Shown here piece after piece: positions 8,205 through 63,201 of a stretch of DNA of 64,000 nucleotides (position 1 is the stretch's first letter; each line of letters starts with the position of its first letter). A program made the translations under genes and the position numbers. The stretch covers positions 372,001 through 436,000 of the forward strand of contig JAPDRO010000009.1 in assembly GCA_030247885.1 (NCBI GenBank), in the 5' to 3' direction. This stretch comes from Taxawa tesnikishii (nom. ined.) (taxonomy: Eukaryota > Ascomycota > Dothideomycetes > Dothideales). The notes beneath the pieces were generated by a model. The model was not told the origin of the DNA and searched no databases. It saw only the letters and a program-made list of their open reading frames with translations.

Positions 8205-9917
8205 CTACAGCCTCCCCATCTGCAAAAGCCATTGCCTCGCTCCCACAATACTCAGCAACACAATCCACCTCTTCAATCCACCCGCCGCCGTTTCCCCACC
8301 CAGCGCCAGCACCAACCAAACCAACCCGGCCCGCTTCACCTTCCCTTCGCGATCAAAATTCGGCTTCTGCTCTGCCATCCTCTTGAACGTCTCAATCTTC
8401 CCCTTGTACGGCGGATACCTGATGTCCAACAACCTCTCGACCCAGCCAGGAGTGCTCGTCACCGCTCTCCGGTGCGTGAAGCAATCGAACGAGGCTTTGC
8501 CGCGGTAGCTGCCCTGACCGGACTCGCCTACGCCGCCGAATTCTAAAGTCGGGATCGAGGCGTGGTAGAAGCCATCGTTGACGCTGGCCCCACCCGAGCG
8601 CGTCCGGTCGAGGATTTTCTCCGTCTCGGCGCGTGTGCCGAAAGGGTACACGCCTAGGGGGTCTGATGCACTTGGTTTGCGATGCGGATGGCGGAGTCGA
8701 GATCATCGACGGCGAGGATAGGAATCAGGGGCCGAACGACTCTTCGGTGAGGAGGGAGTCTGAGGGATCGGTGACTTGGACGACGGTCGGCTCGAGATAT
8801 TTCGTCGAGGCGTCCATGGTGCCGCCGATGAGGATCTTGCCGTGGGTTTCGTCGAGCATCTTCTTCAGGCGCGACCACTGCTTCTCGTTGACGATGCGGC
8901 CGTAATCTTCGCTTTCCCGGACGCCGTTGGGGTAGAATTCCTTCAGCGCGATCTTGAATTGTTCCAGGAAGGTGGGCAGTACATCCTTGTCAATCAAGAT
9001 GTAGTTCTGGCTGACGCAGATTTGTCCTGCGTTCATGCCCTTCGCCCACAGCAATCGTCGCGCAGCGAGTCTGAGGTTAGCATGGCGAGTGACGATGGCT
9101 GGGTTTCGACCACCGAGCTCCAACGTTACGGGCGTGAGTGTTTCGGCCGCCTTCTTCGAGACGATGACACCGACGTTGGCACCGCCGGTGTAGAAGATCT
9201 TGTCCCATTTGCAGTCCAGTAGCGCGGAGCTTTCCGGAATGCCTCCCTGAACGCACTTGTACGCCCTGGTATCTAGCCGCTCCTCGATGATCTTCTGCAT
9301 GACGGCCGCCGCGTTAGGCGCATTCTCCGAGGGCTTGAGGATTGCGGTGCATCCTGCCGCTATGGCGCCTATAAACGGACCGAGAGACAGTTGGATGGGG
9401 AAGTTGTAGGCTCTGCGACACGATCAGATCCAACTCTTCCAGAGCGTAGAAGCCAATGCCAGTACGCGTCCCGTTGCGCATTGCACTTTTATGAAGCGGT
9501 GCTGTTGCACACAACCAAAGAATCTTCTACTAACCCAAGAACCAGCACAGCTCCCAACGGCTCCTTCCTAATCCTTGGTCTCGTGGCCAAATGAATGAAA
9601 TCGATGCCCGTTGGCTTCTCCTCTTTCGCCCATTTCTCCAAGTTCTTGCACACGTAAATGATATCGTTCAAACACCAGCCGATCTCGGTGAGGTACGTCT
9701 CATACTGCGGCTTCCCCAGATCGCGGGCGCACGCTTCCAGGATGTCTTTCTCGTGGTCCTTGATGCCCCAGTAGAGCTTACGCAGCTGCACCAGGCGGTA
9801 TTCGAGTGGGCGCGTGAGGTGCGAGGCAAAGGTTGAAACGACAGTGGAGTGGAGGGCGGAGATGGATTCGACGGGGGTGTGGGTGAAGGGTGGGAGGAGG
9901 CTGTCTTTGGACGCCAT
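8205..9917 (-). CDS. HFD1: Fatty aldehyde dehydrogenase (ALDH3 type) with hydrophobic C-terminal tail; two one-base frame breaks
   Basis: NAD-dependent oxidation of long-chain aldehydes to fatty acids, as for yeast Hfd1 and human ALDH3A2. Exon 1 is 9917-9535; exon 2 starts at 9412. Seen in order: RLVQLRKLYWGIKD, AYNFPIQLSLGP, TLELGGRNPAIV (catalytic Glu region), NAGQICVSQNY (catalytic Cys), and a hydrophobic tail around GLVWLVLALGG and RWIVLLSIVGA that probably anchors it to a membrane. The frame slips at the G run 8728-8731 (between EESFGP and LIPILAVDDL) and at 8657-8661 (between IANQVHQTP and LGVYPFG). One added base at each restores a 530-residue protein. Because other genes here show the same defect, I read these as assembly errors rather than a pseudogene. 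Confidence 0.88.
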
Positions 9918-9969
9918 CCTTGTACGATGTACGGATTCAAATCAAATGCACATCAAGTGGGGATGATCG

Positions 9970-10014
9970 GGTAGGGGTAGGGGTAGGGGTAGAGGTAGAG
10001 GTAGAGGTAGAGGG
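9970..10014. repeat. Hexamer repeat (GTAGGG/GTAGAG)n
   Basis: About seven tandem GTAGGG-to-GTAGAG units. On the ALDH coding strand they read as a CT-rich tract ~55 bp upstream of the ATG. G-runs spaced by TA could form a G-quadruplex. It resembles a telomere repeat only superficially. Confidence 0.85.
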
Positions 10015-10206
10015 TCTAAATATGGAGGGGCAGGAGCTCGAGCGATACGTATATATATACAAAGTACTTGAACAACCAAGTTGAGCTGATGCAACACAAG
10101 CGATGGAAGCATTACTATCATTGGCCGTTGAGCATGTGACAAAGTGTGATTGAGCCTCGGCATCGGCACCGGCATCGCCCAGAAGAGAAGGCGTGGGGCG
10201 GAAACT

Positions 10207-10236
10207 GCCATATACGGCCATATACGGCCATATAAC
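10207..10236. repeat. Three tandem copies of a 10-bp unit GCCATATACG
   Basis: Three head-to-tail 10-bp units, the third with a slight change. The internal CCATATACGG is one base from a CArG box (CC, six A/T, GG), the site class of MADS-box regulators. It lies ~290 bp upstream of the ALDH start. Regulatory function is inference. Confidence 0.7.
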
Positions 10237-10327
10237 GGGACCTGTTAGATCGAATTAACACCAACACTCCGGCGACATGGGCACTGACCATCTTGAGAGG
10301 CAAAGGCTTAAGCACACTCATGAAGTA

Positions 10328-10380
10328 TGGCAGTGGCAGTGGCAGTGGTAGTGGTAGTGGTAGTGGTAGTGGTAGTGGTC
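10328..10380. repeat. Hexamer repeat (GTGGCA/GTGGTA)n
   Basis: Eight or so tandem 6-bp units that change from GTGGCA to GTGGTA along the array. Intergenic. Confidence 0.85.
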
Positions 10381-10734: not shown

Positions 10735-13700
10735 TTACAGGCACAAGGCCAGCACCAACACTCCTACACCACCCAGCACAGCCGTCAACCCGAGTTTCGA
10801 GGTTGAAGCTGTGCCCTGTAGGCTCGCACCGGGTCTTGCTGACCCTCCGGCCGTAGCTGAAGCACCCGCCTCTTGCGTCGCTGTAGATTGACCACCAGGT
10901 CCAATGATGCCGCTGGTGACCGTCGCTGTTCCCCTTGATCTCGTAACGGTTGCAGGGAAAAGCGTTTCGAATTGTGTAGCGGTGATCTTGCCACCAGCTC
11001 CCGCCTCTTCCACAACCAGGACGGTTGCGCTCGGGCTGAGGCTGATGATGATTGTGCTTCCGGATCTCGTTTCGGTGATTACGCCACCCGGTGTTAGTGT
11101 CTGACCGTCGATCAAGTAGCTGGGGCCCGGCCCGGGAAGGGCACTGAACGTCTGTCCGTCGATCGTCAGGACAGGTGCGACAGTCCCGACAGCACCGTAC
11201 ACGGAGGGGATTGTGGAGGTGGTCGTAGCACCAGAGACAACGTCAACAATGGCAGTGCCTGCGGAATCGAGCGAGATTGTCTCGAGACCGTTGGGTCCGC
11301 TGAAGGTGACGGCACCACCCGGCGTGAGCGCTTGTCCGGACACCAGATAAGTAGTGCCTCCATTGGCAGCAGCGGCGGCAGTGACAGTCTGGCCATCGAT
11401 AGTCAGTATTGGGGGCGCCGTGATGGTTGGCAGTGAAGGAATGGTTGATGTTGCCCCGTTGATCACCAAGTCTGAAGCAAATGGCGCGAGTGAAAGGGTA
11501 GTACCGCCAGCAAGGGTAACAACACCACCCGGGGTGAGAGTTTGTCCTGCGATGACATACGAAGACTCTGCATTTGCGGTGTAAGTTTGCCCGTTTACGG
11601 TCAGAATCGGAGCACCTGTCGCTTGGAAACCAGAGGCTGCAGCAAGATTGCGTTCAGATGGAATGGTCGACGTTGCGCCATTGATGACCAGATCAGAGGC
11701 GAACGGTGCGAGCGAAAGAGTTGTACCGCCAGGAAGGGTGACAACACCGCCCGGAGTGAGGGTTTGCCCGGCGACGACATACGAGGATCCCGAGTTCGCA
11801 GTGTAAGTCTGCCCGTTCACTGTCAACACAGGAGCGCCAGTAGCTTGGAAACCTAGAGTTTGGGTGACTCCGTTGATAATCACAGAGGACGCATCGCTGC
11901 CAAGAGAGATAGTTGTGCCGGAGACGGTGATGACACCGCCTGGTGTAAGTGCTTGACCGCCAATCTCGTAAGTTGTTCCTTCATTCGCCGCATACGCCGT
12001 ACCGCCAACGGTTACGAGCGGTGGAGGTGTGATCATTGGTGGCGAAAGGGTCGAAGTGGCACCGTTGACTACAACAACTGATGCAGATGGACCTAAACTG
12101 ACTGTGGTTCCACTGACAACGACGGAACCTCCTGGAGTCAATGTTGCTCCAGGCGCCAGATAGTATTGCGTGGCTGCATTCGCCGTGTAAGTCTGAGATC
12201 CGATCGTAAGCAGCGGAGGGCCAAATCCTGTTATCTGCGGTTGCGAGGCTGCAAGGTAATGGGTGGAAGACCCGATGACCACTGCATTCGCAGAAGGTGC
12301 AATCGACAGACGTGTTCCGTCAACTGTAATTGGAGCGCCTCCAGGTTGCAGTGTCTGGCCTTGAATAGCGTAGACAGGCGTCGGGCTGACAGTGATCGTT
12401 TGGCCCGCTGTCGTGAGAGTCATCGGTGTATTTGGTGCCGCAAGAGGAATTGTTTTGCCAGCGATGACGATGACTCCGGCAGATGAAGGTGCGGAAATGA
12501 CGGTGCCATCGACTGTGACTGGAGCATCACCGGGGCGTATGGTTTGGCCGCCGATCACGAAGGCAGGAACAGGTTGAGGGGTGATGACGGATCCACCAAA
12601 AGTGAAAGATGGTGCCTGACCTGGAGATACCAATGCTGGAAAGCCAGTTGGTAACGCCGATCCTGCACTCCCAAACGGTGAAGCCGAAAAGGCGCGCGTT
12701 ACGCCTCCGATAACAACTCCGCTCGGACCTAGGGAGACACGCGTACCGCTGACAGTGATGGCCGATCCTCCAGGTGCAAGGGTCTGTGTGCCAAGAACAG
12801 CGTTTGCGAAAGGTCCCACTGTAGCCGTTTGCCCTCCCACAGTGATGGGAAGTGGAAGAATGACCACGGGACCTGCTGGGAAGTTGTTGTTCCCTGCAGC
12901 ATTGTTGAATGAGCCCGAGCCTCCTTGGCCACCACTCGAGCCTGTGCCTGATCCGCCGCTGGAAGAACCACCAGAGCCTGCGCCTGCCACACCGGAACCG
13001 CCAGAGCCGGATCCAGCCAAGCCTGAGCCACCCGTATTGGAACCTCCCGAAGAGCCTCCAGAGGACCCGCCAGATGAGCCACTTCCAGAAGAACCGCCGG
13101 AGATGATTGAGACAAGGTTGCCTCCAACGTTCGCTCCTTCTCCGCCTTGCAGGCCGCCCGAGGAACCCCTGAAGAACCGCCAGACGAGCCACTGGAGCCA
13201 CTGGAGCCTCCACTGCTAGAACCTCCGGAGCTGGAGCCTCCTGAACCACTAGAGCTTGAGACTCCAGAGGAACCAGAACCGCCGGTTGAACCTCCGGAGC
13301 CAGTACCGCCAGATAAATCTCCAGAGCCGGAACCTCCTTGAGATCCGGATCCACCTCCAGAACTGCTAGAAGCGCCTGAGTTGCCTGAGGAGCTTCCTCC
13401 ACCGGTTGACGAAGAGCCTGAATTGCCTACCCCAAAGATTGACGCGATTACACCACCAATACCTGAACCCTCGTCTGAGTCTTTGGGGTTGCCGTTTGCA
13501 GGTGTTGGTGCAGGGGCTTGTCCTCCAGTCCCTGCCCCGATGATCGAAGCAATGTTGCCTCCGACGGTCGCCCCGTTTGCGTTTTGAGTCGCACCCGGTT
13601 GATTCGCTTGCAGTGCAGTGCCTGGCGCATTGTTGGACGTTACTGCCGTCGCGACGACGCGGATGGAGTTGTCGATTGTGGTTGTGATAACGTTGGATCC

Positions 13701-16149
13701 GTCAGTCGGCAAAGGCGCATCGAAGAAGGTTGTCGTTTGTTGTATGACAGCCCAGAAAGGAACCCAGTTAGTAAACAGGCCAGCATCGGGATCGTCGTCT
13801 CCAGAACCATCATCGTCAGACGCCTGAAGACCGCCGTTGGTGACAGTGGGAATTGGCTTCACGTCCACGGTGACAGGTGTTTCGGTTGGCGTAGGGGTAG
13901 CGCCACCATCGTCGATTATAGGACTCGGCAGATCGTAAGATGTCTGAGTCTGCTCAACGCGTCCACTGTTTGTTGTCCCTATCTGTGCCCCCAAATCTCC
14001 CGTGGGCGTTGGTTCCGGCGTGTCGAAGTCGGTCTCAGTCTGCATCACGATGGCCGAAGAAGCGGCCGAGGGTACAGGTGCGAACAATGGTGCTTGCGTT
14101 TGTTGCTCGACGGACATGATTGACATTGTCGTGTATCCAGCAAGGACTGCTTCAGCCGCGTAGACGAGTTCGACTACGACGACAACAGTAGGCTCTGCCT
14201 TCCAGGTACCTAGATCGACTGTCGCTGCGGTTTGTCCGATTGCCTTGAGGAACCGAAGCGGCACCGTGCCTGTAACCACGGGTTGACCATCAGGATCCTC
14301 ACCTTCGTACTCATAAGCGAATGCCTCCTTCAGTTTATGTGTGGTCCGTGATGTTGTGCACTGGACGCTTCCGTTGCGGTTGGTGTGTGGTCTCTCAGAC
14401 CAGATTTCGTATTCACTGAAGTGCACGAAAGGCGTGTCCGATTCAACCGTGACTGCTGCACTAGACGCATTAGATGGGCCAGGAACAATTACGCTCGCCG
14501 CTGGCGGACTGGTGACCGCAAGCGGAACAGCGCCTGTCCCGGTTGTTGCGTTAAGAGGTACAGCTTGAGTCTGAGTGACAACAGTTGTAGCTGCTGCCTC
14601 GGGCTTTGGACCTGTATAGGATGCCCACACCCACTGGGTATCGTTGTCCGCATAGGTCATGTACGGGTACCAAGTCGGGGACGCCAGCGCGCTCTCCACG
14701 TCGAACGAAGTTGTAGCCGGAAGCACTGTCCATCCGGTCCGCGAATCCTTCCAGTTGTACTGTATCGAGAAAGTTGATACAACATAGTCGTATGTTTGAT
14801 ACCACCAGTAATCGAGTGATGCGCTTGGAATGTGAACCGTGGCTCCTCCGCAGGTGTCATTGTGATGATTGTGATGTGGCGGTCTTCCCGGACGAGCACC
14901 ATCGCTAGGCGCAGGACGAGGAGGGTTTCCGGTAGGGAGATTTGAACCTGATGGGAAGACACGAGACGGCCACGCCACACCAGTGGTGTTGTACCCATGG
15001 TAAGGAGGAAGCACGTAGCTCACATTGCGAGACGCGGTTGCAGGCCCTACAGGAGATGGAGGAAAAGGCCTGGGTCGAGAGGATGGGGGTGGCGGTCGCG
15101 GAGTGATCGGCGAAACCGGCGCGGGGCCATAAGACGGGCCTAATGGTAGAGACGCACCGCTCGACAGCACGGACGAGGACAAGGTACTCGAGGCGACAGT
15201 CGGAGATACGCTTTCACTGGTGACAATGCCTGTAGAAGCAACGCTAGAGGGCGCAGAGACTGACGAGCTGCTGGCCGAAACAGGTGATAGTGAGCTGTTT
15301 GACGCGACGGAGGTGGGAGTGGCAGCTGCTGTAGGCGAGACGCTCTCCGAAACTGGCGCACCAGCAGATGGAGGAAATGTAGGAGGTGCGGCAGTGATTG
15401 GCACACTTTCGGATTGGGGGCACCAGTAGAGGCCGGCGAAGCGGAGAACGAGCTATCCGAGAAGCTAGAAGAACCCGAGCTTTCCGAAGTCAGATAGGGC
15501 GGTAGGCTGAACGGTACAACGATGGTCGATGAGCTGTTCCAGGAGACATATGACAAGCTGCTTGACAATACCGAGGATGAAATAGTCAGGGTAATGGGTG
15601 ACGAAGGGGTTCCTGTCGCAACAGAGGAGAACGTAGGACTTGTTCCAGATGTTGTAGATACCGGAAACACCGTCGAGCCATTTCCCTGAAGGCTGGAGAT
15701 GTACAGCGATGATGCAGTAGAGCCGCTCAGTGAAGGTGTCGGTGAAGTAGTAGAATCGGGTGGTGTTGAACTCTCCGGTAACGACGGGCTAGCGCTGATC
15801 GAATACGAAAGAGTTAAGTCGGAGCTTGACGATGAACTCTCTGAAGCTGATCCTGTTGACGTGCTTGCATCTGACGTAGAACGGCTGCTGGAAAACGGGA
15901 CTGCGGGCGGCGTGGAAGGCACGTATGGGGAAGGCGTGCTCAAGGGAGTTGTCAGAGACGAGTTCCATATCCCCGCTGTATGCGATAGTCAGCCTGGTGA
16001 TCTGAAGAGAAACGGGACGGGTTCCGGCAGCGTTTTTGGTATTCCTCACCATACGTTGAGAAGTCCCTCTTGTGTCTTTGACCACCGACAGCTCCGCAAA
16101 AGCCTTCGGTTGTCAGCACACCTATGAGTACCGCATGCCTGAACAGCAT
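10735..16149 (-). CDS. Giant Ser/Thr/Gly-rich GPI-anchored cell-wall protein with ~9 'GQTLTPGG' repeats; two one-base frame breaks
   Basis: Predicted secreted surface protein of about 1,780 residues. Exon 1 (16149-16050) encodes a signal peptide (MLFRHAVLIGVL...) and a possible KR cleavage site (RHKRDFST). Exon 2 runs 15975-10735. Domain order: Ser/Thr-rich mucin-like stalk; Pro-rich linker; a Trp/Tyr-rich globular block around residues 330-400 (DYWWYQTYDYV...WVWASYTG); acidic and Gly/Ser linkers; about nine units of ~55-65 residues containing (V/I)xGQTLTPGGxIT..GT..SL; and a C-terminal hydrophobic tail (LTAVLGGVGVLVLALCL) fitting a GPI signal. The frame slips at the G run 15416-15420 and the C run 13166-13169; one base added at each gives a continuous protein. 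The enzyme or ligand function is unknown. Confidence 0.82.
11444..11857 (-). repeat. Recently duplicated repeat pair inside the wall-protein gene
   Basis: Two ~190-bp segments (11444-11635 and 11666-11857) are near-identical at the protein level (SLAPFASDLVINGATSTIPS in both) and similar in DNA. They are the youngest copies in the GQTLTPGG array, which implies recent unit duplication. Confidence 0.8.
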
Positions 16150-18140: not shown

Positions 18141-20331
18141 ATGCCCTCATTTGACCTGACCCGTTTGCTCTCCTTTTGCGGCCTTGCCTTCGTTCTACAC
18201 GCACTGACAACCACCGCGGCATCTCTTGAACCGCGTGCGACAGTCGTTCCCGCGCCAATCAGCTATGCGCCCAATGAGTATTGGTAAACGGCACCTTCTC
18301 CGGCTGTAGAGATATCATGTACTGACACGCGATTCAGGGACGGTATAGATGGCCAATGGTCCTCCTTCGACATCCGCGTGGGCACTCCCGCCCAAGTGTT
18401 GCGCGTCTTCCCTCGTGGATGTCCTACAACACCTGGGTCATTGCTCCCGAAGGATGCCCGTACACGGCGAACAGCTCTGACTGGAAGGCCTGCTATGAAT
18501 CCCGAGGTCACCTCTTCAACTCCAACCAGTCGTCGACTTGGGATTATCGGGGCTTGTATTCGCTGTGGATCGAGCAGAACCTGGGATATGAGGGGAATGC
18601 CCACTTCGCGGACGATACGGTTGGGCTTGGGCTTGCAGGCAGCGGTTTGCCAACACTCGACAATATGACGGTCGGCTCGCTTGCCGTATACGACTTCTAT
18701 CTGGGCGTGTTCGGGTTGAATCCCAAGCCAACCAACTGGACTACCTTTACGGATAGCACGCCGAGCTTCATGACCACACTGAAGCAGAACAAACAAATAC
18801 CGAGCGTGTCTTTTGGGTTCACCGGCGGAGCTCCATACCGTATGGTCTAACAAGGAACGGTTAATGGAGATGTTTGCTGACTTGGGTTTGCAGGTTTTAC
18901 CGGAGTTCTCGCTTCCTTGACTCTGGGTGGGTACGATGCATCACGGTTCACGCCCAACAACGTGGAGTTCGTCTTTGCGCAGGACAACGAACGCGATCTC
19001 GTTGTGGGAATCCAGACAATCACGACAACTTCGTCGAATGGAACAGGAACGACGGATCTGCTCCCAAACCCCGTTTATGCTCTTATCGACAATACCGTTC
19101 CGGAGATCTGGCTGCCAATCGAGGCCTGTCAGGCTTTTGAGCAAGAGTTTGGCCTCGTGTACGACAACACTACTGAGCTCTATATCGTCAACAACACGCT
19201 GCACAACGGCTTGCTTGCCCGGAATGCGAACATCAGCATCACGCTTGGACAAGCAACCGGCGGCGGAAATACCGTCACAATCACTATGCCGTATGCTGCA
19301 TTTGATCTTACCGCCAAGTCACCGTACAGGGGCCTCCTCAACAGCACTACGTATTTCCCGCTTCGAAGGGCGGCGAACGCGACGCAGTACACGCTGGGAC
19401 GGACGTTCATGCAAGAGGCGTACATCAGTGTCGACTACGAACGCGTTCGGTTCAATGTATCACAAGTCAACTGGGAGCAGAACTATACGCCTCATCTCGT
19501 TGCCATTGCTGCAGCATCGGACGAAGAATCGAGCAACTACAGCGGCAACACCGCTCATCCATCCTCGTCGTCATCCTCCAAGCTCAGCGGAGGAGCCATT
19601 GCAGGCATCGTTGTTGGGGCAGTCGTTGTGGTCTGCGCGGTAATCGGTTTGGCAGTCTGGTACTTCCGCCGCAGCAAAAGCATGCCTTCGAGAAGACAGG
19701 GCAGGAGGAAGAGGCGGCAGGCGCCGGCAAGCCGACCGACAGCGTATCGAGCTCGGATCGCTCGACGGAGAAGGGCACGCAGGTGATACCCAAGGCAGAG
19801 CTGGACGGCAGCTCGCCCTTGGAAAGCGAGACGAAGGGGCTCCTGCACGCGCCACAGACGCCCACGTCGCCCTCGAGCCAGGGCTACAGCACTTACAACT
19901 CGTCTACCGGCACGTGGGTCATGAGTCCCATGTCGCCGACTCAGGCGAGCGAGGCCGATGCGGGCCTCGGGGCGCAGATTTTCGAGATGCCGGGCGATAT
20001 GCCGACGCTGCGTGAAGCGGACGGCAAGCAGATCACGGAGAAAGACATGATGAGGAGACGGGAAGAACAGTACAACGGCGTGGATCCGAGTACGCCGACG
20101 GCGGATACGCCGACCACCGAGGCGCCGCCGACGACGAGGAGGATGCTGGAGCCGAGCCAGGTGCAGGAGGTTGGGGGACGGGAGAGGCAGTTCAGCTTTT
20201 CCAAGGATGACGATGCGGAATTGTCGGGTCACGGGTCGGGGAGTGCGAGCGAGAACGCGACGAACGGGTCGTCGGAGAACGCAACACATGGGTCGGCAAG
20301 TACGGCACAGAACAGCACGGGCGTGTTGTAG
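18141..20331 (+). CDS. Membrane-anchored aspartic-protease-like protein without catalytic DTG motifs; two one-base frame breaks
   Basis: Type I membrane protein of about 694 residues with a pepsin-fold-like ectodomain. Exons 18141-18283, 18338-18839 and 18894-20331. Seen: signal peptide (LLSFCGLAFVLHALTTTAAS); IRVGTPAQVLRVFPSW...NTWVIAPEGC where active peptidases have DTGS; SLTLGGYD; ALIDNTVPEIWLP at the second catalytic position, where the Asp is kept but the TG is lost; many NxS/T sites; a Ser linker; one transmembrane helix (AIAGIVVGAVVVVCAVIGLAVWYF); and a ~200-residue acidic, Ser/Thr-rich cytoplasmic tail. The frame slips at the C run 18410-18412 and the A run 19676-19679. The changed motifs suggest a non-catalytic binding or sensing ectodomain rather than a yapsin; this is inference. 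Confidence 0.8.
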
Positions 20332-21364: not shown

Positions 21365-22961
21365 ATGGACGGCAGGAAACAGTTCAAGGTCTTCAACCAG
21401 GACTTCATCGTCGACGAGAGATACACCGTCACCAAGGAACTCGGACAGGGCGCTTACGGCATTGTTTGGTACGCCCTTTGACACAGCACGTCTCTGCATC
21501 TGCGTCTGCTTCTGCATCTGCATGCGCAGGCTGCCCGGCCATGCTAGAAAAACCGCGAGGCTTACCACTCGACCAGCGCCGCCGTCAACAATGACACGAA
21601 CGAGGGCGTAGCGATCAAGAAGGTTACCAATGTCTTCAGCAAGAAAATTCTCGCTAAGCGCGCCCTGCGAGAGATCAAGCTGCTACAACACTTCAGAGGC
21701 CAGTGCACGCCCTATCTTGTCCGTAGAAGCGGCATACTGATCGACCACAGGACACAGAAACGTATGCGCGTACGGCATCAGACATGCGGAAACACCGACT
21801 GACGAAACATGCGTAGATAACATGTCTGTACGACATGGACATTCCCAGGCCGGACAACTTCAACGAGACCTACCTCTACGAAGGTTCGCAAACACAACCA
21901 CAACCTCACTCCCCGGTTGCGGTCCGCTGACCACCCCGCAGAACTCATGGAATGTGATCTCGCCGCCATCATTCGCAGTGGACAGCCATTGACCGACGCA
22001 CACTTCCAGTCCTTCATTTACCAGATTCTCTGCGGTCTGAAGTACATACACTCCGCAAACGTCCTCCACCGTGACCTGAAGCCCGGCAACCTGCTCGTCA
22101 ACGCCGACTGCGAGCTCAAGATTTGCGATTTCGGTTTGGCGCGAGGCTTCAGTGTGGACCCGGAAGAGAACGCAGGATACATGACCGAATACGTTGCAAC
22201 GAGATGGTACAGAGCGCCGGAAATCATGCTCAGCTTCCAATCGTACACGAAAGCCAGTGCGTGCAATGTCCTGTCTGCCCGAGCTGCATGCAAGCTGACG
22301 CATATGTACAGTCGATGTGTGGTCCGTGGGCTGTATCCTGGCCGAGCTCCTGGGCAGCAAGCCTTTCTTCAAAGGCCGGGACTACGTCGACCAGCTCAAC
22401 CAGATCCTGCACTACCTCGGCACACCCTCCGAGTCGACGCTGTCTCGCATCGGGTCGCCGCGCGCGCAAGAATACGTCCGCAACCTTCCCTACATGTCCA
22501 AAATCCCCTTCCAGCAGCTCTTTCCGAGGGCCAACCCGGACGCTCTGGACCTCCTGGACCGCATGCTGGCCTTCGACCCGTCGCAGCGCATCAGCACCGA
22601 AGACGCGCTCGAGCACCGCTACCTGGCCATCTGGCACGACGCCTCCGACGAGCCCACCTGCCCGACGACATTCGACTTCCACTTCGAGGTCGTCGACGAC
22701 GTGCAGGAGATGCGCGAAATGATCCTGGACGAAGTGCGCAGGTTCCGCGCCGAGGTCCGCCAGCCCACGCCTCAGCACCGTGGCCAGTACGCCGATGCGG
22801 CTGCTTATGCCCAGCAGCAGGGCGGTCAGGTCCCCATTCCGAACCAGTGGGATGCTAGACACGAGGCTGACCCCAGGCCGCAGGAGATGGGCGCACACGG
22901 GGCCGGTGGCCTGGAGCAGGATTTGGCCTACGGAATGGACGCTTCGTATGGCAGGAGGTAG
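21365..22961 (+). CDS. SLT2: Cell-wall-integrity MAP kinase, Slt2/MpkA type
   Basis: Terminal Ser/Thr kinase of the Pkc1-Bck1-Mkk pathway that answers wall stress. Six exons: 21365-21468, 21577-21698, 21751-21761, 21817-21883, 21942-22256 and 22312-22961, giving 422 residues, the usual MpkA length. Seen: Gly loop [13 protein letters not shown] lysine, HRDLKPGN catalytic loop, DFG, the TEY activation motif in [17 protein letters not shown], and a Gln/Pro-rich tail. Two points are odd. The third exon is only 11 nt, needed for the conserved [12 protein letters not shown]. The intron before it starts with GC rather than GT (AG|GCCAGT), so it is a GC-AG intron. No frame break. Confidence 0.96.
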
Positions 22962-23280: not shown

Positions 23281-26200
23281 TCAGACCTGAAACACCTCCC
23301 CCACACCCTCCCAATGTCCGCCTTCCCTCCGTTCCCAATACCCTTCCTTCCCCACTCTCAACCTAAACACGCCTCCCTCCTCATCCTTATCCACCGCACC
23401 CGCACCCTCTACCTTCTCAAAAAGGTCGGCGACCACTTCGCCCCGTGACCTTCCAAAACTTTCTTCCGAGCCCTCTGTCTCTCCTCCAACCTGGCCTTCA
23501 ACCCCTCGGCCTTGTCCAACAACCCCTCCTCCAGGGCGCGCTGATCGGGCCTCAACCTCGAATCCGTCGGCGGCAACCTCCCCTCCTCCACGCCCGTGAC
23601 TTGGTTCAGCGCGGCCGCAAAGGCCGTGAACCCGTAGCACTTGGCCGCGTCCGGCACCAGGGGACCGGGCGTCCAGACGCTGGCGCCCGTGTCTGTGCGC
23701 GCGAGCCCGGAGGTCCACTTGCCCGCCAGCCCGAGCGGGAGCGGAGCGGGAGAGGTCGGGGTGTAGAGCGCGATGGAGACGTCTTCGCTGCGGCCGGCAA
23801 ACATGCCGCCCGCCTTGAACGTCGCGATGGCTTTTGCGCCCGAGCTTTCGCAGATTATGGTCATGGAGGCGACGGGTTCGACGTATTTCTCCCCGCGATC
23901 ACGTTGCGCAGGAAACAGGTCGCTTGTTGCCACGAGTAGCACTCCCTCCTCCTCCTCCTCCTCCTCCTCTCGTCGTTATGCTCTCCGACGCTTGCACATC
24001 GTGCAGCACGAGCCGCGTCTTGCCCAGCGTGTTCAGCTCGACGCTCTTGCCCCAGAACTTCTGCACCGGCGACGCCGTCTGACCGAGACTCCAACCCGCG
24101 CCGTCCGCCTGGAATGCCATGCGCAGCGGATGGTGCTCCACCTTCTCCGCCACGAAGCGGAACCCCAGATCTTCGCGCACCAGCTCGTACGTCTCGCCGA
24201 GCATGGGGTTGAAGGGTTTGCGGATAGCCCGCTCCTTGACCCGGTTGGCGGCAAAGCCGGCGATGGCAAACACGGCGACGTGGAGGAGGCGTTCTGTGGC
24301 CTGCGCCGCTGCCGAGAGTGAGGCGGCCGCGTCGAGGAGGGCAGAGGCTTCGAGGGGTTCGGCGAGTTTCTGCAGGAGTGAGGTTGGCTCGTTGGCGCTG
24401 ACGGGCATGCTGACGGTGCTGAGGTCTTTGCCGGCGTTTCTGCGGAGGAAGCCGATGATGGAGGGTGGTGGCTGTACAGGCGGTGGAATGGTGGTTCGGC
24501 GTTGTACGGATGGGAGTGGGAGTGGCGAGAGCGATCTTGGCCGGCTAGGGAAGAGGGAGGAGAATGCATCTGAGGCCTTTACGGGAGAACCAGGCACGGT
24601 CATCGCGTCTCCAGCGTCGCTGCTGGATTCGGAATCGTCTGTTTCGGACGCGTCGTCCGAAGGCTCCTGGTCTCTGCCTCCGTCGACATCGTCCGACATG
24701 GTGAGTAGTTGCGAGCTTCTGACGCCGCCGTCTTCGGCATCGAAGAACTCGTCCGACGAAGTCGTTTCGAGGACATGCGCGAAGTAGAAGTGGCGAGAGG
24801 TGGCATACGACGCGCTTTGCTTTCAGCAAGGAGGGCCGAGAAATCCGACACCACGGCATCGAGGTCTTTCAGAAGGGCCAGGCAGCGCTCGTGAACGTCT
24901 TCTCCAGACGATTGTGGTAGCGCTTGACTGCGCTTCTTTGCAAGCTGAGCCCACCGCCAGCGTTCAAGGACATTGCTGGAACAGCAGACGGTGCTGACAC
25001 TGCTACTTGTGCTGAGACGCTGCGCCGGAAAATGGCTCCAGGACTGGTACCACCGCTCGAACTAGGCTTACGCTTCCAGAACGGGACCTTCTCCGAGGTC
25101 TTGTCTTCAGTATCCAGAAAGAACGGGTTTGACGAAGATTCTATAGAGGAGGCACTAGGCGAACCACCGTTGCTGATGCCTAGACCGTTGCTCGGGCTCG
25201 GACCGTGGTATTTGGGGTCCGTATCTTGAGCGAGACGGCGTGCGGCATCTCGCGATCCGGACACTCTTGCCACGAGTTCTTCAACCCTCTCCCAGTCTCG
25301 TTCGTCGGCGGGGCTTTGTAGAGCCGCGGTTGGAAAATCCGACGAGGTATGTAACGGTGTCCCAGGTCCCGGCGTGCCAGGGGCCGTGTTCGATGCTCGC
25401 TCCAAAGCAGCCTTCCACTCCTCAAAGTCCTTTTTGTTTCCTGCTTTGAGGTGCCAGACCTCAGCACCAGAATCCACAGAAAACTCCCTGCGCTTTTCGT
25501 TGACTCCTACAGCTGCTAGCGACAGAGGAATGGCTCCACGAAGTGCTGAGGAGTGTCCGTTGCGGTAGTAGGAGAGTGTGGCCGACGTGAAGTCTAGGGA
25601 GAAGAATCTTTTGCATGACCCTGATTCCGCTTTCTGCGCTTCTTCCAAAGTGTGCCTGTGTGGAAATTGCCCCCATCTGATGCCTTGACCGTGCTCCCAC
25701 GCTTCCTAGTCGCAGGGCCACCCCGAACCGTTGTGGCCAAGCCAGAATCTTGCGGCAAGGAATCCGTTGAATCTGCTACAGGCCTCAGGCTAGGGCTCGA
25801 CTTCGCTACGCTGGTGGTGCTCCCTGCCGCCATGGCCTGGGAATAGTGCAGGTGTGCCTGGGACTTCGGTGGTGCGTTGGTTGGATGCGTCATGAGGACG
25901 AAGGTCGCCGTCTTGGACACTTGTCTGGAGAACGTGTTGTCGAAGACCAGACCATACATGCCGCCTTCTCCCTCGCCAACGTTGTACGTCCCCATGGACA
26001 CCTTGTCTGCTTCGCATTTTCCGGTCCAGGCAACACATCTCAACCCAATGCTCTGCAATTTCTCTACGACAGTACTCGAATCATTTCTGGCAACTGACCC
26101 CCTCCTTTTCTTCTTCTCGTCTGCGTCTGCAGTAGCGGTAGTGAGTGTAGCCGAGACATCAAAGGTCGCAGGAAGGTTGGGGGTGAGGCCATTCTTGGCA

Positions 26201-47253: not shown

Positions 47254-50019
47254 ATGACAAGCCTATTGCGGCAACCCACGCATTTGGCCCGCTTGACAAG
47301 ACAGACCTTGCGAACAACATCGAGATCACGCCCACTTGCTTTCCGCCCTGCGTCGCTTCCGAGGCCACTCTACGCGTTCCAGCGCACCCGGCGGTATGCC
47401 ACTCAACCCGAGGAGCCCAAGCAAGACGGCAAACATGCAGAGGATAAGAAGGCAGCGTCGGAGAAGACGCCTGGCAAGGCCGCCCCAGGATTCGAGCACA
47501 TGTACACTAACTCGAGTCCAATGACACCGGGAGACCCGGGGAGTGGCAACCGGGATGGTACCAAGGCTGGGTACACAAAACTCACGCCGGAGGAAGAGAA
47601 GGAGCTGACTGAGCTGTTCTCGCACGTCAAGAAGGGTATGCCGGCTGCAATGGCGGCGGACATTGAGAAGATCGTGGAGCGGTTAAAGAAGGATGGTATA
47701 CCCCAGGACTTGCGCGAGACGATGAACGAGGTCAAGAACGGCTCGATGACACCGGCTATGGCGGCGAAATTGTGGCGATTAACGTCGCAGATGGCGAGGA
47801 AGACAGCGGAGGAACAGATGGCGGAAGAGAAAACAGGCAGTGAGAAGGGTGAGCAGAAATCTGGCGCACACGACCCTGGTCCAGCTGGGAAGGGCAAGAA
47901 GAAGAAGGACGGCAAGCAGGAAGGTTTCCAGATGAACGAGATCAAACTGGACCTCAACAACATCCTCTTGTCGGCATTCATCTCCTACATGTTCTACCGA
48001 TTGATGGTTCCAAGCGAAAACTCGCGCGAGATTACCTGGCAGGAGTTCAGGAACACCTTCTTCGACAAGGGATTGGTGGAGAAGCTTGTCGTGATCAACA
48101 ACAGCCGAGTCAGAGTGTACCTGCACCGCGAGGCTGTGGCTGCCATGTACCCTGAGTCACCGGCAGCACATGGGAACTTCCACTACTATTTCAGTATAGG
48201 ATCTGTGGAGGCGTTCGAGCGCAGAGTGGACGAGGCACAATCAGAGCTTGGCATTCCTTCATCCGAGAGGATACCGGTTTCATACGCGCGTGAAGTGCCG
48301 TGGTTTGAGACTGTTTTGAGCTTCGGGCCCACGCTTCTGTTTATCGGAGCCATCTTCTACCTCTCGCGACGAGCAGCTTCCGGTGGCGGTGGCCAAGGAG
48401 GTGGCTTGTTTGGTATGGGCAGAAGCAGAGCAAAGAAGTTCAACCACGAGACGGACGTCAAGGTCAAGTTTGCCGACGTCGCCGGCATGGATGAGGCGAA
48501 GCAGGAGATCATGGAGTTCGTCAGTTTTCTCAAGGAGCCTGGCATGTACCAAAAGCTCGGAGCAAAGATCCCTAGAGGCGCTATCCTGTCTGGACCACCC
48601 GGTACTGGTAAGACATTGCTCGCAAAGGCCACTGCTGGTGAATCCGGCGTGCCTTTCTTCAGCGTCAGCGGTTCCGAGTTCGTCGAGATGTTCGTTGGTG
48701 TCGGTCCGTCCAGAGTACGAGACCTGTTTGCCAACGCGCGCAAGAACACCCCTGCATCATTTTTATCGATGAAATCGATGCCATCGGCAAGTCGAGATCG
48801 AAGGGCAATTTTGGAGGAGGCAACGACGAGAGAGAAAGCACGCTCAACCAGATCCTGACGGAGATGGATGGTTTCAACACTTCGGAGCAGGTCGTCGTCT
48901 TGGCAGGTACGAACAGAGCAGATGTTCTGGATAAGGCGCTCATGAGACCCGGACGTTTCGACAGACATATCTCGATCGACCGGCCTACCATGGACGGCCG
49001 CAAGCAGATTTTCGGTGTCCATCTGAAGAAGATTGTGACCAAGGAGGATGTTGAATATCTAAAGGGCAGACTGGCTGCTCTTACGCCCGGCTTCGCAGGC
49101 GCAGACATCGCCAACTGTGTCAATGAAGCCGCACTAATTGGTAAGGCATCCATATCGTCTGTGTCGTGACTGCTTGCATTAGCTAACATCTGTTGTAGCT
49201 GCCCGTCACAACGCCGATTCAGTGATGATGACGCACTTCGAGCAGGCCATCGAACGTGTCATCGGAGGCCTCGAGAAGAAATCACTCGTGCTGTCGCCCG
49301 AAGAAAAGCGCACCGTCGCCTACCACGAAGCCGGCCATGCTATCTGCGGTTGGTACTTCGAGTACGCCGACCCGCTTCTCAAGGTCTCTATCATTCCACG
49401 TGGACAGGGTGCGCTCGGATACGCACAGTACCTGCCCTCCGGCGACACTTACCTTATGAACGTCAAGCAGCTGATGGATCGTATGGCTATGACACTCGCG
49501 GGTCGCGTGTCCGAGGAGCTTCACTTCGATACGGTCACATCGGGTGCAAGCGATGACTTCAACAAGGTTACCCGTATGGCGTCCGCCATGGTGACGAAGT
49601 GGGGCATGAGCTCTAAGGTCGGATACCTGTACTACGAAGACGATGGACAACAGCAATTGCAGAAGCCGTACTCCGAGGAGACGGCCCGGAATATTGATGC
49701 TGAGGTGCGCCGGATCGTCGACGAGGCGTACAAGCAGTGCAAGGACCTTCTTACAGAGAAGAAGAAGGAGATTGGCATCGTGGCGGAGGAGTTGCTGAAG
49801 AAGGAAGTCTTGACGCGAGATGACCTGATTAGGTTGCTGGGTCCTAGACCATTCGAGGACAAGGGCGACTTCAGCAAATACTTCGGCAGTAGAGGCGATC
49901 GTGAAGGCCCTGGGTCGGGTATCCCTGAAGCGCCGGAGAAGCCAGACGGACCCATCATTCCGGGTCCTGGGAGCGAGAACCCCGCACCTACCATCTTCAA
50001 GGATATTGAGAGGAGGTGA
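47254..50019 (+). CDS. YTA12: Mitochondrial m-AAA protease subunit (FtsH/Yta12-Afg3 type); one frame break
   Basis: ATP-dependent zinc metalloprotease of the inner mitochondrial membrane that degrades unassembled proteins and matures MRPL32-type substrates. Exons 47254-49140 and 49199-50019 give ~902 residues. Order: Arg-rich presequence; charged KGKKKKDGK linker; transmembrane helix ([17 protein letters not shown]); FtsH extracellular domain; second helix ([14 protein letters not shown]); Walker A GPPGTGKT; Walker B FIDEID; second region of homology ([18 protein letters not shown]); and the HEAGH zinc site. The frame slips at the C run 48749-48752 (ARKNTP to [11 protein letters not shown]); one base restores it. 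Yta12 or Afg3 cannot be separated with certainty from sequence alone. Confidence 0.93.
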
Positions 50020-50799: not shown

Positions 50800-53141
50800 T
50801 CATACATGCACGTTCCCAACACCAAACCCGAATCTCTTCGGTTGGTTTTCCCAATAGCCGTCCTCTTCGTCCAACTGCGTGACCCTTTTCTTACTACGTC
50901 TGCCGAGCGCTCCATTCCAATCATCACCATCACCCATCCCCTCAGCAGCCCTGTTATCATCATACCACCCCGAAGCGGCTCTGTTGGCGTCATACTCTGA
51001 AAAGACCATCAGCCCACCGACCGTCTTGTCTGAATTCGCGACGATTAACTCCCTTCCGCCCTCCAACGCCGCCACTCCAGCAATCGAGCCAAAAAATCAA
51101 CATCCTGTTTCGTGTCCCACGTCCTAGCATCATAGACGCTGACAACATCGTCTGACTCGCCTATGACGAGCGCGGGACCACCGCCTATTGCTCCAGACGC
51201 CGTGAACTGCAAAGACCGTGCATAACCCATTTCACAGCCCAACACCGTCAGCGGTGTCCGCCAGTTGCGCGCATCGTAAACGACGACGCGACCGTCCTGC
51301 GCGCCGGTTGCGACGTGGCGCCCATCGTCGCTCCATGCGCACGAGAAACCCCACACACTGGCGCGCCAGTCTTGCCGTTCCTCGTGCTGACGGCTACGCA
51401 CAAGCACGGTACCGCGTTCGGCGTCTGTCACAAGCGTCTCGTCCCAGTCACCCAGCACGACACGAAGCCGACCGTCGGGCGAAGTGGCGGAGCAGTTAAG
51501 CGAGTGCTGGTACGTAAAGGTGGCAGTCCAGGTGTCGGTGGCAACGTCAAGCAGACGCAGTTTGTGATCGTTGGAGCAGAACGCTGCGCTCAGCGCGCCT
51601 GTGCGGCGGTGCGGAATGACCTGAATGTGGGTGGAGATGCCGTCCCAAGCGTGAGTCAAAAGGCCTTCCGTTGGTTTCGTAGGATGACATGAGTTGAGAT
51701 TGAGCAGCGCGTATTCGCCCTGAAAGCTGCCTGCGATCAGTACAGATTCGGAGGCGTAGCTTGTGAAGGCAGAGGGCGGAGAGGCGGCGATCGTGGTGAT
51801 GCGGTAGTCTGCGGCAGAACTACGGGGTTCGTTGGGTGAATTGCTCAAATCCAGTACAATATCTGCAACGCTTGGGCAGGCGAGCGAGGTCCGGATGACC
51901 TTGTTTTGAGTTGCGTAAAATACGTCATTGCGGCTTGTCGCAGCCAAGACATTACGCAGCTGATAATGGGTGTAGATAGCTCGGTGTTGGAAGAGCATCT
52001 GACTGAAGTGGTAGAAGGAGCCCTGCCGGATAGTTCTGGTCGGACTGAAGGTTGCTTGTTTGGGAACGGGCCACCGTTCGAATTCGCTGTACTTTGGAGA
52101 CAGGATCTTTCTGACTGCTCTCGCAGTTCTTCTGTCGGTTTCTAGACCGCTCCAGTCCAACCCTTGAATGTCGCGGCCCGAATCTGTCAAATCCTGACTC
52201 CATGCATCCGGTGGTGGCCGCCAATCGCGTATCCGTGAGGACTCGAGGGCGATCGAGTAGTGTCGAGGTAAATGGTTCTGTTCGTCAAGATGCCATCTAT
52301 CCAAGAACGCTTGAACATCATAACCTTGCCGGACGTCGTCCGCCAAGTCCTCAGGTAGATGTGGTGTTTGATCTGTGTGTAGAGTCCCGACCGGAAACAT
52401 TTCTGCCTGTGTTGACTGGACAACATGTAACCCGTCGCTCGTGGGTATAGAATTCGAATGTGAGATGGGTACAGAAGGTGATGAGCCCCTGACTGAGGTG
52501 GGAAAGACAGGTGGAGTAGTCTGTGGAGTGACACTTGGATCGTTGTGAGATCCGCTAGGCAGATATTGTGTCGATGTAAACGAATTGGGAGCATAAGGGG
52601 CAGGAGGTTGGGGAAGAAACTGAGATGTCTGCTCATGTTGCGCATAGACGTGCAACAGCGGATCATTTGCTGAACTGTACCCTAACCGTGGAATGTTAAG
52701 AGATGCTAAGCCAGACACAGCTGACTGGATACTGTCTTCCTGAGAGCTTTGCGAGGTGCGGTTGTTGAGTGAAGCGACGTAGTGCCGTGGAATTTGTAAG
52801 TTGTCCGGATAACCATGTTCAGGGTCAGGATACGTAAGGGAAGGCGTACTGTAGGCGTTCTGGTCTGTGAAATCCGGATCTAAAGGTACTCCGCCTGGCT
52901 CGTCGTCTTCCATAGGGATACCTTGGTGCTCGGAGGATGACGGTTCCTGGAGAGGAGCCAAGGTTGCTGAAGCGGGACACGGGATGTTATCGGTACAAGA
53001 AGTGCTCTCTGGACCGCAAACCTCATCCGCAACACAGGGGCGTGCATTGCCGCTGCAGGTGCAGCTGACACTGCTGTCATGCTGTGGCGAGGCGTGCTGA
53101 AAAATGCATTGACGGGCCGGCCGTGAAGTGGAAAATGGCAT
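50800..53141 (-). CDS. WD40-like beta-propeller protein, function unknown; one frame break
   Basis: Single exon, ~780 residues after one correction. Residues 1-~310 are Ser/Pro/Gln-rich and probably disordered. From ~residue 270 comes a structured region: DVQAFLDRWHLDEQNHLPRHY, then propeller-like strands such as LIAGSFQGEYALLNL, HKLRLLDVATDTW, NCSATSPDGRLRVVLGDWDETL, CAWSDDGRHVATGAQDGRVVVYDAR and PALVIGESDDVVSVYDAR. The WD dipeptides are degenerate. The layout resembles large uncharacterised fungal WD-repeat proteins of the SPAC2A9.03 type. The frame slips at the A run 51091-51096 (VDFF|GSIAGVAALEGG); one base extends the protein by ~90 acidic, Gly-rich residues ending GFGVGNVHV. Confidence 0.78.
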
Positions 53142-54601: not shown

Positions 54602-57600
54602 TCAGAAATCGTAATTAGCCTCGTAACCCAGGTTGGAAGGTTGTCTGTGATGATGCACTTTCTGCTGCGGGCTCGGGAAGCCTCCTCCGCCCATGGTAGG
54701 TGTACCGAACGACATCGAAGGGCTTCCCTGGCTCCATCCTTGTTGCGAACCCTTCATACGTCGCTCGTGCTCAAAGTCGCCCCACCTCTTCATGGTGATC
54801 TTACTGCTGTCAAACTCGCCCTCGGCATCGCCATGACCTGCTCCCTTCACGTCGCCGGCAGTCTTGCGAGTATCACCCCATGAGAAGTCGTCAAACTTCC
54901 AGTAGGCATACGTTGGAAGGACAAAGTTCCAGATCGGGAGGGATAGCAAGTAAATCAACATCCACGCGACGTAGGACCAACGGTGTGCCGTCATAACAAT
55001 GAGGACAGCCGGCAGACCGAGAATGAGTGCCAGAAGGACGAGTGGAATCGTTGGTGCTGCTGTGTGTGTTATAGCTGCTTTGAAAGCGATAGCAACTGAT
55101 GATCGTTAGCGTATGCTTGCAAAAGGAGAGACACAAATCTACTTACTAAGGTAGATGGTGAAGGAGATGGCTGCAGGGAGGACAAGCGTGCCGACCAACT
55201 CGATGAAGACGACGAACTGCATACTGAAGCAAAATGTACCGCAAAGATCCCGGACGAGCACGAGTTCCATGAGGTTGTGGACAGTACTGTTAATCCAGCG
55301 ACGCCGTTGAGAGAGAAGCACCATGAACTTGTCTGGAACAGTAGTCTTGCACACCGCCTGAGGTACGAAAACCTGCTTTCGTTTGGGAAAAGTCCTAAGC
55401 ATAAGTGTCGACAGGTATCGATCCTCACCCAGGAGTAGTAGGTTCTTCTGGTGTAGTGTCTCGACCACGTTTTCCGAATAGTGTTCCACTATATCCGGGT
55501 TTGCCAGGATTGGTACCCAGTAATTTTGTCCACCCTTTGGGGTTTTGATGCGGTACATACAGAAACAGCCAGGCAGACAGGTCACACCACCAAACACGGA
55601 TTCGAAGGACTTCGACATGTGGTGCGAGATGAAGTATTCGAAGACCTGAATCATCGATACCCAGCTTTGCCTCTTGTTCGCAATCTTCGTTTCACCGCAG
55701 AGACCCATGATTTCGGGATCCTTGACCATAGCGCTGACCATGTGAGTGAGACTGTCCGGGAAGACCTTGGTGTCGGCATCCACCATGAGTACAATCTCAT
55801 AGAAGTCGGGCGAGATACCAGTGACCTTCCAGATACCGTTGAACATTTCGTACTCAAGCTCCGTCATACGCTCGTCGAACATGACTTTTTGCAGGAAAGA
55901 CATGAGAATGATTTGACTGTCGCGCTTGCCGCGATTCCCGGGCTTGGATGCTGTGACTTCGTCTGGAGTGCCGCACTTGACGACAACCATCATAGGGACA
56001 CGCTGCTGCTTCTCGGCAGGGATGACGGAATCTGTACCATAGTCATAGAATCCAGAGTAGATCTTAGCCATGTTATGACGCTTCGAACCACTAGCAACAG
56101 CAACGTACGAGAAGGGCTGGACCTCTTCTTCTGGGATTGCGTGGTCCCTCATCATGCTCAAGCAAACATCAGGGGTAGACATGCTTTCGCCTTTGCCCTT
56201 GATGATGCCATCACAGATGACCAAAATAAGCTTGTGGCTGTTGGGGTACTCGGTTGTAGCAATGGAGTCGAGGGTCGTACGGATACCGTCGGGGCCTTCA
56301 GAGTATGCTGTGACAAGACATATGGTGTGCGCAAGCGGATATCCGAAGGGCTGCCACTCAGGCGGAGGCTGGGGAACAACTGCTTCGTGTATAAATCCCG
56401 AAGGCCCAGACATATCTGTGCTGTCCATCACACTAGAATATCTATGATCGCTGCCATTTGGAGCACCGTGGGGAGCCAGAAGGCTTGCACGACTCTCAGC
56501 CATGGATTGTTTGCCTGACTCTGCAAAGGTAGGGAGCGTGCCTTCGCTGCGGTTTGTGTGACCGTACATCTGCGCACCGGGCAAGAGGCGGGACGTCGAG
56601 CTCTGGCTGGCCATCGTGGTCGGCTTAGGACGATGCCCAGACTGCTCTATAGCATAAGGACTGGTGAACCTAGAAGTAGTAGGCATGAAGCTGCTCCTTT
56701 TGCGAGACTTCTCACCGGATCCAAATGCAGGCTCAGCAAGCTTCGGCGCGGGACGGTAGATGTCGTCAGTCCAGTCTTCAATCTGCTGCTGCCTCGTCTT
56801 TTCATCTCCTCCGAGAGATGATCTGTCAGCAGCGTACTTGCGACAAAGGAACCATTGGAAGATGAGGGCCAAGAAGAATTTTACGGCGACAATCGACAAG
56901 ATGAACACCAGAGACACGTATAGGACAACTTTGGAAGCAATACAGCCAACAGTTTCGGTGTCAATGGAACCGACTTTAATGATCTCCTGGAAGCACTTGG
57001 CAATCTGCTTGTCTTCACCAGAGGAGAAAACCATAGTCATATCCAAGCCCCTGATGGCGCTGTTCTCACGAATCTGGTCAAAACGTGCAGGATAGGAGAC
57101 TTGACTCGTGTTGAACCACCTGAGAAGATCCAAGTCCAGGACATCACCACTGTAGACCATAAGGTTCCGGCTTGAGTTTTTGACATCATCCCAAGTAAAG
57201 TAAACATCACCAGAGCTACGCAGGCCATAAAAGTCAGTACGCGACTGCTTTGAGGTATGGCAGGCATAACCGAGATAGTAAGGAATCGTTTTATTGGGCT
57301 CGGAAGAGCCATCCTGGTTGAAAGTGTTGCAGGGGAAGTACCAGGCAAGATTGCCACTGGAATCCGTAGGCACGTCGGAGTTGGTGGCAGCCGTAATCAA
57401 GCCCTTGCAGTGTCCGTTGACGTTCTGGAAGAGAAAGCTGCCATCCTGACCGCCGTGTGGCTCGTCCATATCCCACAGAACGTTGCCTCCTTGGGGAATG
57501 CCTCGAGCGAGCGGGTGCTTGGAATAAACCAGGTCGTAGGCTTGACCGTGAAAGATCATGTACCCCTTATCCACTTTGTTGACCCTCAACCTTGCAGGTC

Positions 57601-58380
57601 CCCCGCAGGGCAAACAGTCTCCGTAAAGCCGAAAGTGAGGAAACCGACAAAGGTCATGATCGCAAGGATTATGCTGATCAGACCCATCTTTTCCCTCCAA
57701 GCCTGTTGCTGCTGCTTTTGAGGCATGCCGAAGCAACGGAGAATAGCACCAGGCGCCCAAAAAGTCACCAAGTGGCAGTATGAGTTCCACAGACTGGGTA
57801 CTCGCCCAGCCTCCTTGGCCTTCTGCCGTTGTTTCTCTTCGGCTTCCGCTTCCACCCTGGTGGGCTTGCGCTGCAGCTTGCGACTACCGCTTCTTCCAGG
57901 TGCTTTTTCTGTGAGTTTCAGGTCTGAGCTTTCTGAGCTGACAGTCTCTGCCTCTGCCTCTTCAAGCATTGGGTCGTGGCCAGTAGTGGAGGGCATGACT
58001 TGCATGTTTTGCGCATGCTTGCGGTAGTAGTAGTTTGGATCCTCACTGTCATTCCTTCTTCTTTCTGGGCGAACCAAACTCCTCTTCCGGTGGAGCTCAG
58101 TGTTCGGTGCGAGCGACGAGGCCGCTGCCATCATTGGATCTGTGACTTGATGCTGTGGGGAAGGGAGGCCAGGCGAAGGAAGCGCTCTAATATGAGAGTC
58201 GGCTGGAGCCTTAGGTCGCGCAGACGAGCTCCTTCTGCGGCGGCGTTCGTGCTTGTTGTGATCGTATAGCGAAGATTCGATATCGGATGGGCGGCGTCTA
58301 CGAGAACCTTCTCTGTGTGAGTTTGACCGTGAGTCCCGACGTCTCGGAGACGCTGGGCTCGGCCGTGAAGGTGTCGACAT
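54602..58380 (-). CDS. Chitin synthase, class IV (yeast Chs3 / Aspergillus ChsD type); one frame break
   Basis: Membrane processive glycosyltransferase making wall chitin from UDP-GlcNAc. Exons 58380-55147 and 55095-54602 give ~1,242 residues, normal for class IV. Order: Arg/Ser-rich cytosolic N-terminus; transmembrane helix ([19 protein letters not shown]); large luminal or extracellular domain; helix ([24 protein letters not shown]); catalytic core with [39 protein letters not shown] and [12 protein letters not shown]; and several C-terminal helices. The frame slips at the C run 57600-57604 (TETVCPAG to [13 protein letters not shown]); one base restores it. The final intron (51 nt) has a GCTAAC branch site. 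The CWI kinase gene in this window acts in the pathway that regulates chitin synthases. Confidence 0.95.
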
Positions 58381-62500: not shown

Positions 62501-63201
62501 CAAAGCGAGTGGGTTTTCTCGCTTACAGTCAGCCATATCCTTGCTTCCGTTCTCCAAGAACTCACTTCTGACAGTGTTTCCGTGCATGAACTCCAGGCTC
62601 AGAACTCCGTTAGAGTCGGCACAGATGCCCGGGCCAAATACCATGTAGTTCACCTGTGGCTTGTCTGGACGGCTTATGTGCAGGGTCACACTAGGGAACT
62701 GCATGTGTGTTTGCACGTTGACGAACACGAAGTCTTCTCAACCGTCGGGTTTGTTGTCAGGCTTGAGGTCGCCGAACCAGAGAGTGTCTCCTTCACGAGG
62801 CCATGTGATCGCCCCAGCGTGGACCTTTGCGTCCGGCTTGAAACGCCGAGCCAACTTGCTGCTGCCAAACTCGTCCGGATGGTCGTGACCGCGGTACTCC
62901 CCATGGACCAGCATGGTTTCGCGCGGGTACAGGTACTCGTTCTCTTTCAACATGTGCTACGGCGGCAACTCGTGAGGCTTGATCGTCCTCGCGACTCGCA
63001 ATGATGAGGGCATGTTCTCATAGTCGCTCCCATCTATGCCGGATTCAGCGCTTCACTCGCTGTCGGAGTCCGAAACATAAGGCTTTTAAACGCCTTGATG
63101 GTCTCGTCGGCATTGTCGTCGCGCCTGGCATCAGAGGCCTTGCTGCTGGGCTTGACGAAGTCACCGAGGGATGCTTTGGTGGTTGGCTTTTGAGGAGCCA
63201 T
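59562..63201 (-). CDS. SF1 helicase, UPF1/SEN1-like (AAA_11/AAA_12); about five frame breaks and two in-frame stops
   Basis: Large ATPase of ~1,214 residues, likely acting on RNA or RNA-DNA hybrids. The start is the ATG at 63201 (MAPQKPTTKASLGDFVKPSS). Seen: N-terminal domain (DFVFVNVQTHMQFPSVTLHISRPDK), Walker A GPPGTGKS, motif Ia LLVTAPSNDAVD, a Walker-B-like VDEVGRSN instead of the usual DEAxQ, LNEQRRMHPDIS (UPF1-type QxRMHP), VDISTVSKIQGGEG, ELSRAR, and an acidic then Lys/Arg tail (EEEEAEQEAEQ...KKKRRRRGPKK) like a nuclear signal. Missing bases near 63034-63087, 61274, 61055-61100 (two) and 60873 restore the frame. TAG at 62957-62959 and TGA at 62738-62740 remain. An intact gene with poor sequence is likelier than decay, but decay is possible. 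Confidence 0.75.

Follow-up and report, generated by a model that had tools for sequence, protein, structure and literature searches.

The loss of single bases from homopolymers is a well-known error of long-read sequencing; the phenomenon described here is already known, and biologically it is nothing new. In a published yeast nanopore assembly, deletions often occurred in homopolymers and few genes were free of indels prior to short-read polishing, namely 429 of about 6250, a number that nanopore-only polishing raised to 2590 (PMC5466710). The same report describes the R9 nanopore chemistry as leaning toward homopolymer insertions, which counts against the reading preferred below (PMC5466710). 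For ascomycete nanopore assemblies, a second report describes homopolymer indels at low coverage (PMC9453082). The present assembly is like the yeast nanopore-only assemblies in that deletions dominate the errors and often lie in homopolymers, but its error density is far lower, a break being called about once every 3 to 5 kb of coding sequence with a recall of approximately two-thirds (PMC5466710). It is likewise similar to the Oxford Nanopore ascomycete assemblies, in which homopolymer indels affect conserved genes, are more frequent at low coverage, and have frameshifts as a named consequence; the passages considered give no indel direction (PMC9453082).

The window, a stretch of 64,000 nucleotides (C34:372001-436000), belongs to an assembly of 29,367,862 bases (29.4 Mb) in 34 contigs, and its gene content is fungal and, judging from the genes, filamentous-ascomycete-like. 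Pfam searches of the likely coding strand across most of the window (setting aside positions 1-4000, intergenic gaps, and most opposite strands) returned domains of VPS53, FAA hydrolase, aldehyde dehydrogenase (ALDH), protein kinase, oxysterol-binding protein, fungal rhodopsin, MFS transporter, inositol-pentakisphosphate 2-kinase, YjeF_N, m-AAA protease, chitin synthase, and AAA_11/AAA_12 helicase; an eIF4A-like helicase was recognized by eye, and CENP-T-like and WD40-like matches scored under the curated Pfam cut-offs. Scans of the window found no tRNA and, at gathering scores, no Rfam match. Roughly 22 genes were counted by eye, and 10 of them contain the fifteen sites where the initial annotation had proposed that a homopolymer is one base short. 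The resulting frame breaks are very probably errors of the assembly and not features of the organism, namely homopolymer deletions that persist in a consensus built from long, probably nanopore, reads. One-base losses that run mostly one way, are linked to homopolymers, occur genome-wide, and are exact in several conserved genes, together with a scarcity of G/C runs of six, make an uncorrected long-read consensus the best explanation.

All 15 listed coordinates were read in the sequence. A run of at least four identical bases is touched by 14 of the 15 sites, a contact that is partly circular in that the earlier reader chose runs near each break, and such runs make up 3.1% of the window. The site at 18410-18412 is a run of three only, and one site given as 25610-25613 is off by one base, the actual TTTT run lying at 25609-25612. 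Without recourse to homology, a phase-aware codon model found that the best frame shifts in the missing-base direction at 13 of the 15 sites, with weak support at 18410 and 23419, where a stop lies within the best frame on one side. The two exceptions are 8728, where the tested stretch beyond the site includes the next break at 8657, and 13166, a Gly/Ser-rich repeat in which two frames score equally. With the full frame model, a missing-base call fell within 40 nt of six of the 15 sites (15416, 19676, 25610, 36544, 48749, and 57600) and extra-base calls beside two (13159 by 13166 and 23923 by 23891). The proposal of one-base-short homopolymers is in part confirmed; several of the sites were judged by eye.

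In the m-AAA (AFG3L2/Yta12-like) protease gene, the frame breaks at a CCCC run that appears one base short (48749-48752, +), just before the Walker B region. The match to chain A of 6NYY (AFG3L2) runs as far as residue 131 and then picks up at residue 134 in the next frame, and the Pfam AAA domain of this gene is split across two frames; the junction holds 5 nt vs the 6 expected for two codons, and four of these 5 nt are the CCCC itself (a whole run of at least four falls within a random 5-nt interval in 1.4% of cases). The frame model called a missing base at 48755. In the gene with the fungal rhodopsin domain, CCCC stands at the junction as well (30205-30208, +): positions 1-120 of PF20684 are matched in one frame at 20.1 bits, a weak score under the curated cut-off of 27, and positions 129-236 in the next frame at 55.4 bits. 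This junction measures 23 nt vs the 24 expected for eight positions, with the proviso that the upstream match is weak and the alignment ends are soft.

The ALDH gene (class 3 or fatty aldehyde type) contains two of the proposed breaks, at 8728-8731 (-) and 8657-8661 (-). Its open frame matches 1ad3 as far as residue 337, where it ends, and the C-terminal 86 aa lie in a third frame and align with 1ad3 363-444 and 3sza 380-462. Taken together, the breaks leave 76 nt for 25 residues between the 1ad3-matched parts, which, on the sequence as it stands, would mean two missing bases together with an added residue, or else a single extra base; in neither case would there be room for an intron. The frame between the two breaks presumably resembles the expected sequence, and its look by eye favors two breaks; the 22 residues between the breaks, searched alone, found no relative in the PDB. 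The initial annotation had also claimed that protein similarity resumes in another frame, which homology on both sides, with too little space for an intron, confirms in the m-AAA gene, in the rhodopsin gene, and in the ALDH pair taken together.

The oxysterol-binding (Osh-like) gene is broken at 23891-23894 (-), where positions 1-151 and 170-347 of PF01237 lie in different frames; the split leaves 46 nt, and the Pfam arithmetic is compatible with an intron. Past 23891, the reading frame picks up Osh3 (4ic4) at residue 212, the frame leading into the break was read by eye only, and the 20-residue middle piece found no Osh chain in the PDB. The same gene is broken at its PH domain (25609-25612, -), with PH_8 in the downstream frame and a missing-base call at 25606, and near its 3' end (23419-23423, -), where the frames were read by eye. 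Separately, the stretch 23895-23994 (-) likely contains a second, unlisted Osh-like frame change beside a GGA-type repeat, or an intron of approximately 46 nt.

Frames were assigned by eye in the MDM34-like, chitin synthase N-terminal, WD40, CCCH-like, and protease-like genes, for which the identities of the broken parts are our assumption. What we take to be an MDM34 counterpart, for which there was no Pfam match, is broken at 36544-36547 (+), with a missing-base call at 36546. The chitin synthase gene is broken in its 5' part (57600-57604, -; missing-base call at 57589), and its catalytic domain is intact in a single frame. The WD40-like gene changes frame near its 3' end (51091-51096, -; codon model), and WD40-type matches upstream of this break are all under the curated cut-offs. 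A presumed protease-like surface protein gene is broken on the plus strand after a transmembrane-like segment (19676-19679; codon model, with a missing-base call at 19649) and also near its 5' end, at the run of three mentioned above (18410-18412). The gene broken at 40275-40278 (+; codon model) contains what we take to be a CCCH-like segment. On the minus strand, a break at 15416-15420, supported by the codon model and a missing-base call at 15452, lies in a Ser/Thr/Gly-rich gene without a Pfam match, and another was proposed at 13166-13169, in the Gly/Ser-rich repeat. The long Ser/Thr/Gly-rich gene at 10735-15968 (-) has the composition of a cell-wall or surface protein and gave no Pfam match on its own strand.

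The direction of frame changes was counted with a symmetric frame model using stricter splice scores, and the sample outside the window comprised 19 loci of 10 kb, with 107.3 kb of coding sequence (the 23% G+C locus C1:100001-110000 being set aside). These loci gave 21 missing-base vs 3 extra-base calls (P = 0.0003), and 10 of the 19 contained at least one missing-base call, so the effect is genome-wide and not local. Twelve of the 21 missing-base calls had a run of at least four no more than 15 bases away, where 19% would be expected from window positions (P = 0.0001). Within the window there were 12 missing-base vs 4 extra-base calls, an imbalance that is not significant alone (P = 0.077); only 4 of the 12 missing-base calls were near a run of at least four, which is not a clear enrichment, and one was an edge call at base 12. 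A further 14 ALDH loci gave 3 missing-base and no extra-base calls, and all groups pooled gave 36 vs 7. When indels were planted as a control, recall was 80 of 121 for deletions and 77 of 107 for insertions, one being given the wrong type, with no direction bias; as about a third of planted breaks are missed, the counts of the model are lower bounds. A local cluster of errors in the window was also considered and is not supported, the call rate there (12 per 39.7 kb of coding sequence vs 21 per 107.3 kb outside) being not clearly above that of the rest (P = 0.096). This lack of a clear difference in rate, together with the imbalance and homopolymer enrichment outside the window, supports the earlier view that the breaks reflect a sequencing shortfall and that real inactivation is unlikely.

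Neighboring profile matches were recounted in five families (11 of 48 ALDH candidates scored and the other four families whole; AAA, with 20 of 92 scored, lies outside the recount). Of the 39 pairs obtained, 22 change frame with space enough for an intron, 12 stay in frame, and the remaining 5 leave no such space. Exact one-base losses account for two of the 39, in a chaperonin gene on contig C1 and an HSP70-family gene on contig C3; in both, the profile positions abut one base short, and the protein continues across GGGG and AAAA, respectively. The other three pairs without room are an HSP70 pair on C1 (38 nt, ambiguous), an OSBP pair on C8 (with a 66-position profile gap), and a nested synthetase match on C1 that is not comparable. 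The OSBP genes on C23 and C11, candidates for intron-free breaks, were dropped, as approximately 50 nt of room is present in both; these genes and the OSBP gene of the window prove nothing about missing bases. Several family matches contain internal stops that are assigned neither to introns nor to breaks. Exact breaks are few in the conserved families relative to the window, and this may reflect composition, chance, or polishing with RNA reads. Conserved housekeeping genes are where the exactly resolved breaks are found, and in these the protein carries on beyond the break. On C1, the tRNA-synthetase match at 572421-574634 (-) has eight internal stops and its nested piece in another frame, representing introns or several breaks, and the HSP70-family pair with 38 nt to spare, at 1373467-1374950 (-), fits either an unusually small intron or one lost base.

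That many of the listed breaks are unrecognized introns is a very improbable explanation. The genome has many short frame-changing introns, a description that fits the 22 pairs with room; in the window itself, a kinase domain is split across 22257-22311, the Osh domain split leaves its 46 nt, and a permissive model makes introns of some listed breaks. However, only 5 nt (m-AAA) and 23 nt (rhodopsin) lie between matched residues, the chaperonin and HSP70 matches on C1 and C3 abut, and introns would favor neither one frame direction nor single-base runs. The permissive version of the frame model, with its loose splice rules, had explained several breaks as odd introns and was superseded by the version with stricter splice scores. 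It placed one intron at 36472-36554, across the listed break at 36544, and a second at 19613-19674, ending 2 nt before the break at 19676; the two illustrate what had been foreseen, namely that annotation would add false introns.

True inactivation, through real one-base slippage deletions in a decaying or hypermutable lineage, is given equally little weight. The breaks are present in the sequence as given, and homopolymer slippage also yields one-base changes; nevertheless, chaperonin, HSP70-family, and m-AAA genes are hit with the protein conserved on both sides, and slippage would also insert, whereas the pooled calls stand at 36 vs 7. Strong PDB-chain matches on both sides of the breaks in the m-AAA and ALDH genes do not suggest the relaxed constraint that would mark a pseudogene. 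Programmed ribosomal frameshifting at homopolymer slippery sites, toward which the shared frame change and run context of the four tool-resolved single breaks might point, can be given almost no credence, as the run letters differ, the genes are unrelated, and no common heptamer was found by eye. At the resolved sites, real inactivation, introns, and programmed frameshifting each fail one test or more.

Under the preferred explanation of residual long-read errors, a consensus (most likely Oxford Nanopore, insufficiently polished) would lose one base at many homopolymers, mainly G/C runs that now have a length of four or five and also some A/T runs, and each lost base would shift the frame of an otherwise intact gene. 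The assembly itself shows the breaks, which way they run, the homopolymers beside them, and their occurrence on other contigs; that the reads are the cause and nanopore the platform is what we infer. Nanopore is the likeliest platform because of the contiguity of the assembly and the published behavior of yeast and ascomycete nanopore assemblies. For users of the assembly, split or truncated gene models and false introns are likely genome-wide, and counts of pseudogenes or lineage-specific genes drawn from it would be wrong.

The run-length spectrum was compiled from 254 kb, that is, the window and the 19 loci. For G/C runs, the step ratios from two to five are 0.20, 0.21, and 0.16, and that from five to six is 0.021, with 146 runs of five vs 3 of exactly six, plus one of nine. 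The whole genome contains 747 G/C runs of exactly six and, extrapolated from the sample, approximately 16,900 fives (a ratio near 0.044); this count implies about 6 or 7 sixes in the sample, where fewer, 3, were seen. A/T runs fall smoothly to six, and runs of at least 14 are still present. A finished E. coli sequence (100 kb) served as a small and imperfect control in place of a finished fungal genome: its 35 G/C fives are followed by 3 sixes, plus 3 runs of seven. G/C runs of at least six make up 4 of 150 runs of at least five here vs 6 of 41 in this control (P = 0.007), and A/T runs of at least six occur at 0.13 vs 0.76 per kb. The depletion of G/C sixes is real against the genome's own trend and modest against the small E. 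coli control. That the fungus truly shortens or avoids G/C homopolymers genome-wide, with ribosomal or transcriptional slippage letting it tolerate one-base frame breaks in essential genes, is scarcely credible. As a separate observation, the locus C1:100001-110000, 10 kb at 23% G+C within a 2.8-Mb contig whose other four sampled stretches have 53-55% G+C, contains no run of at least seven despite its AT-rich composition; it is possibly a RIP-type or centromeric AT-rich block.
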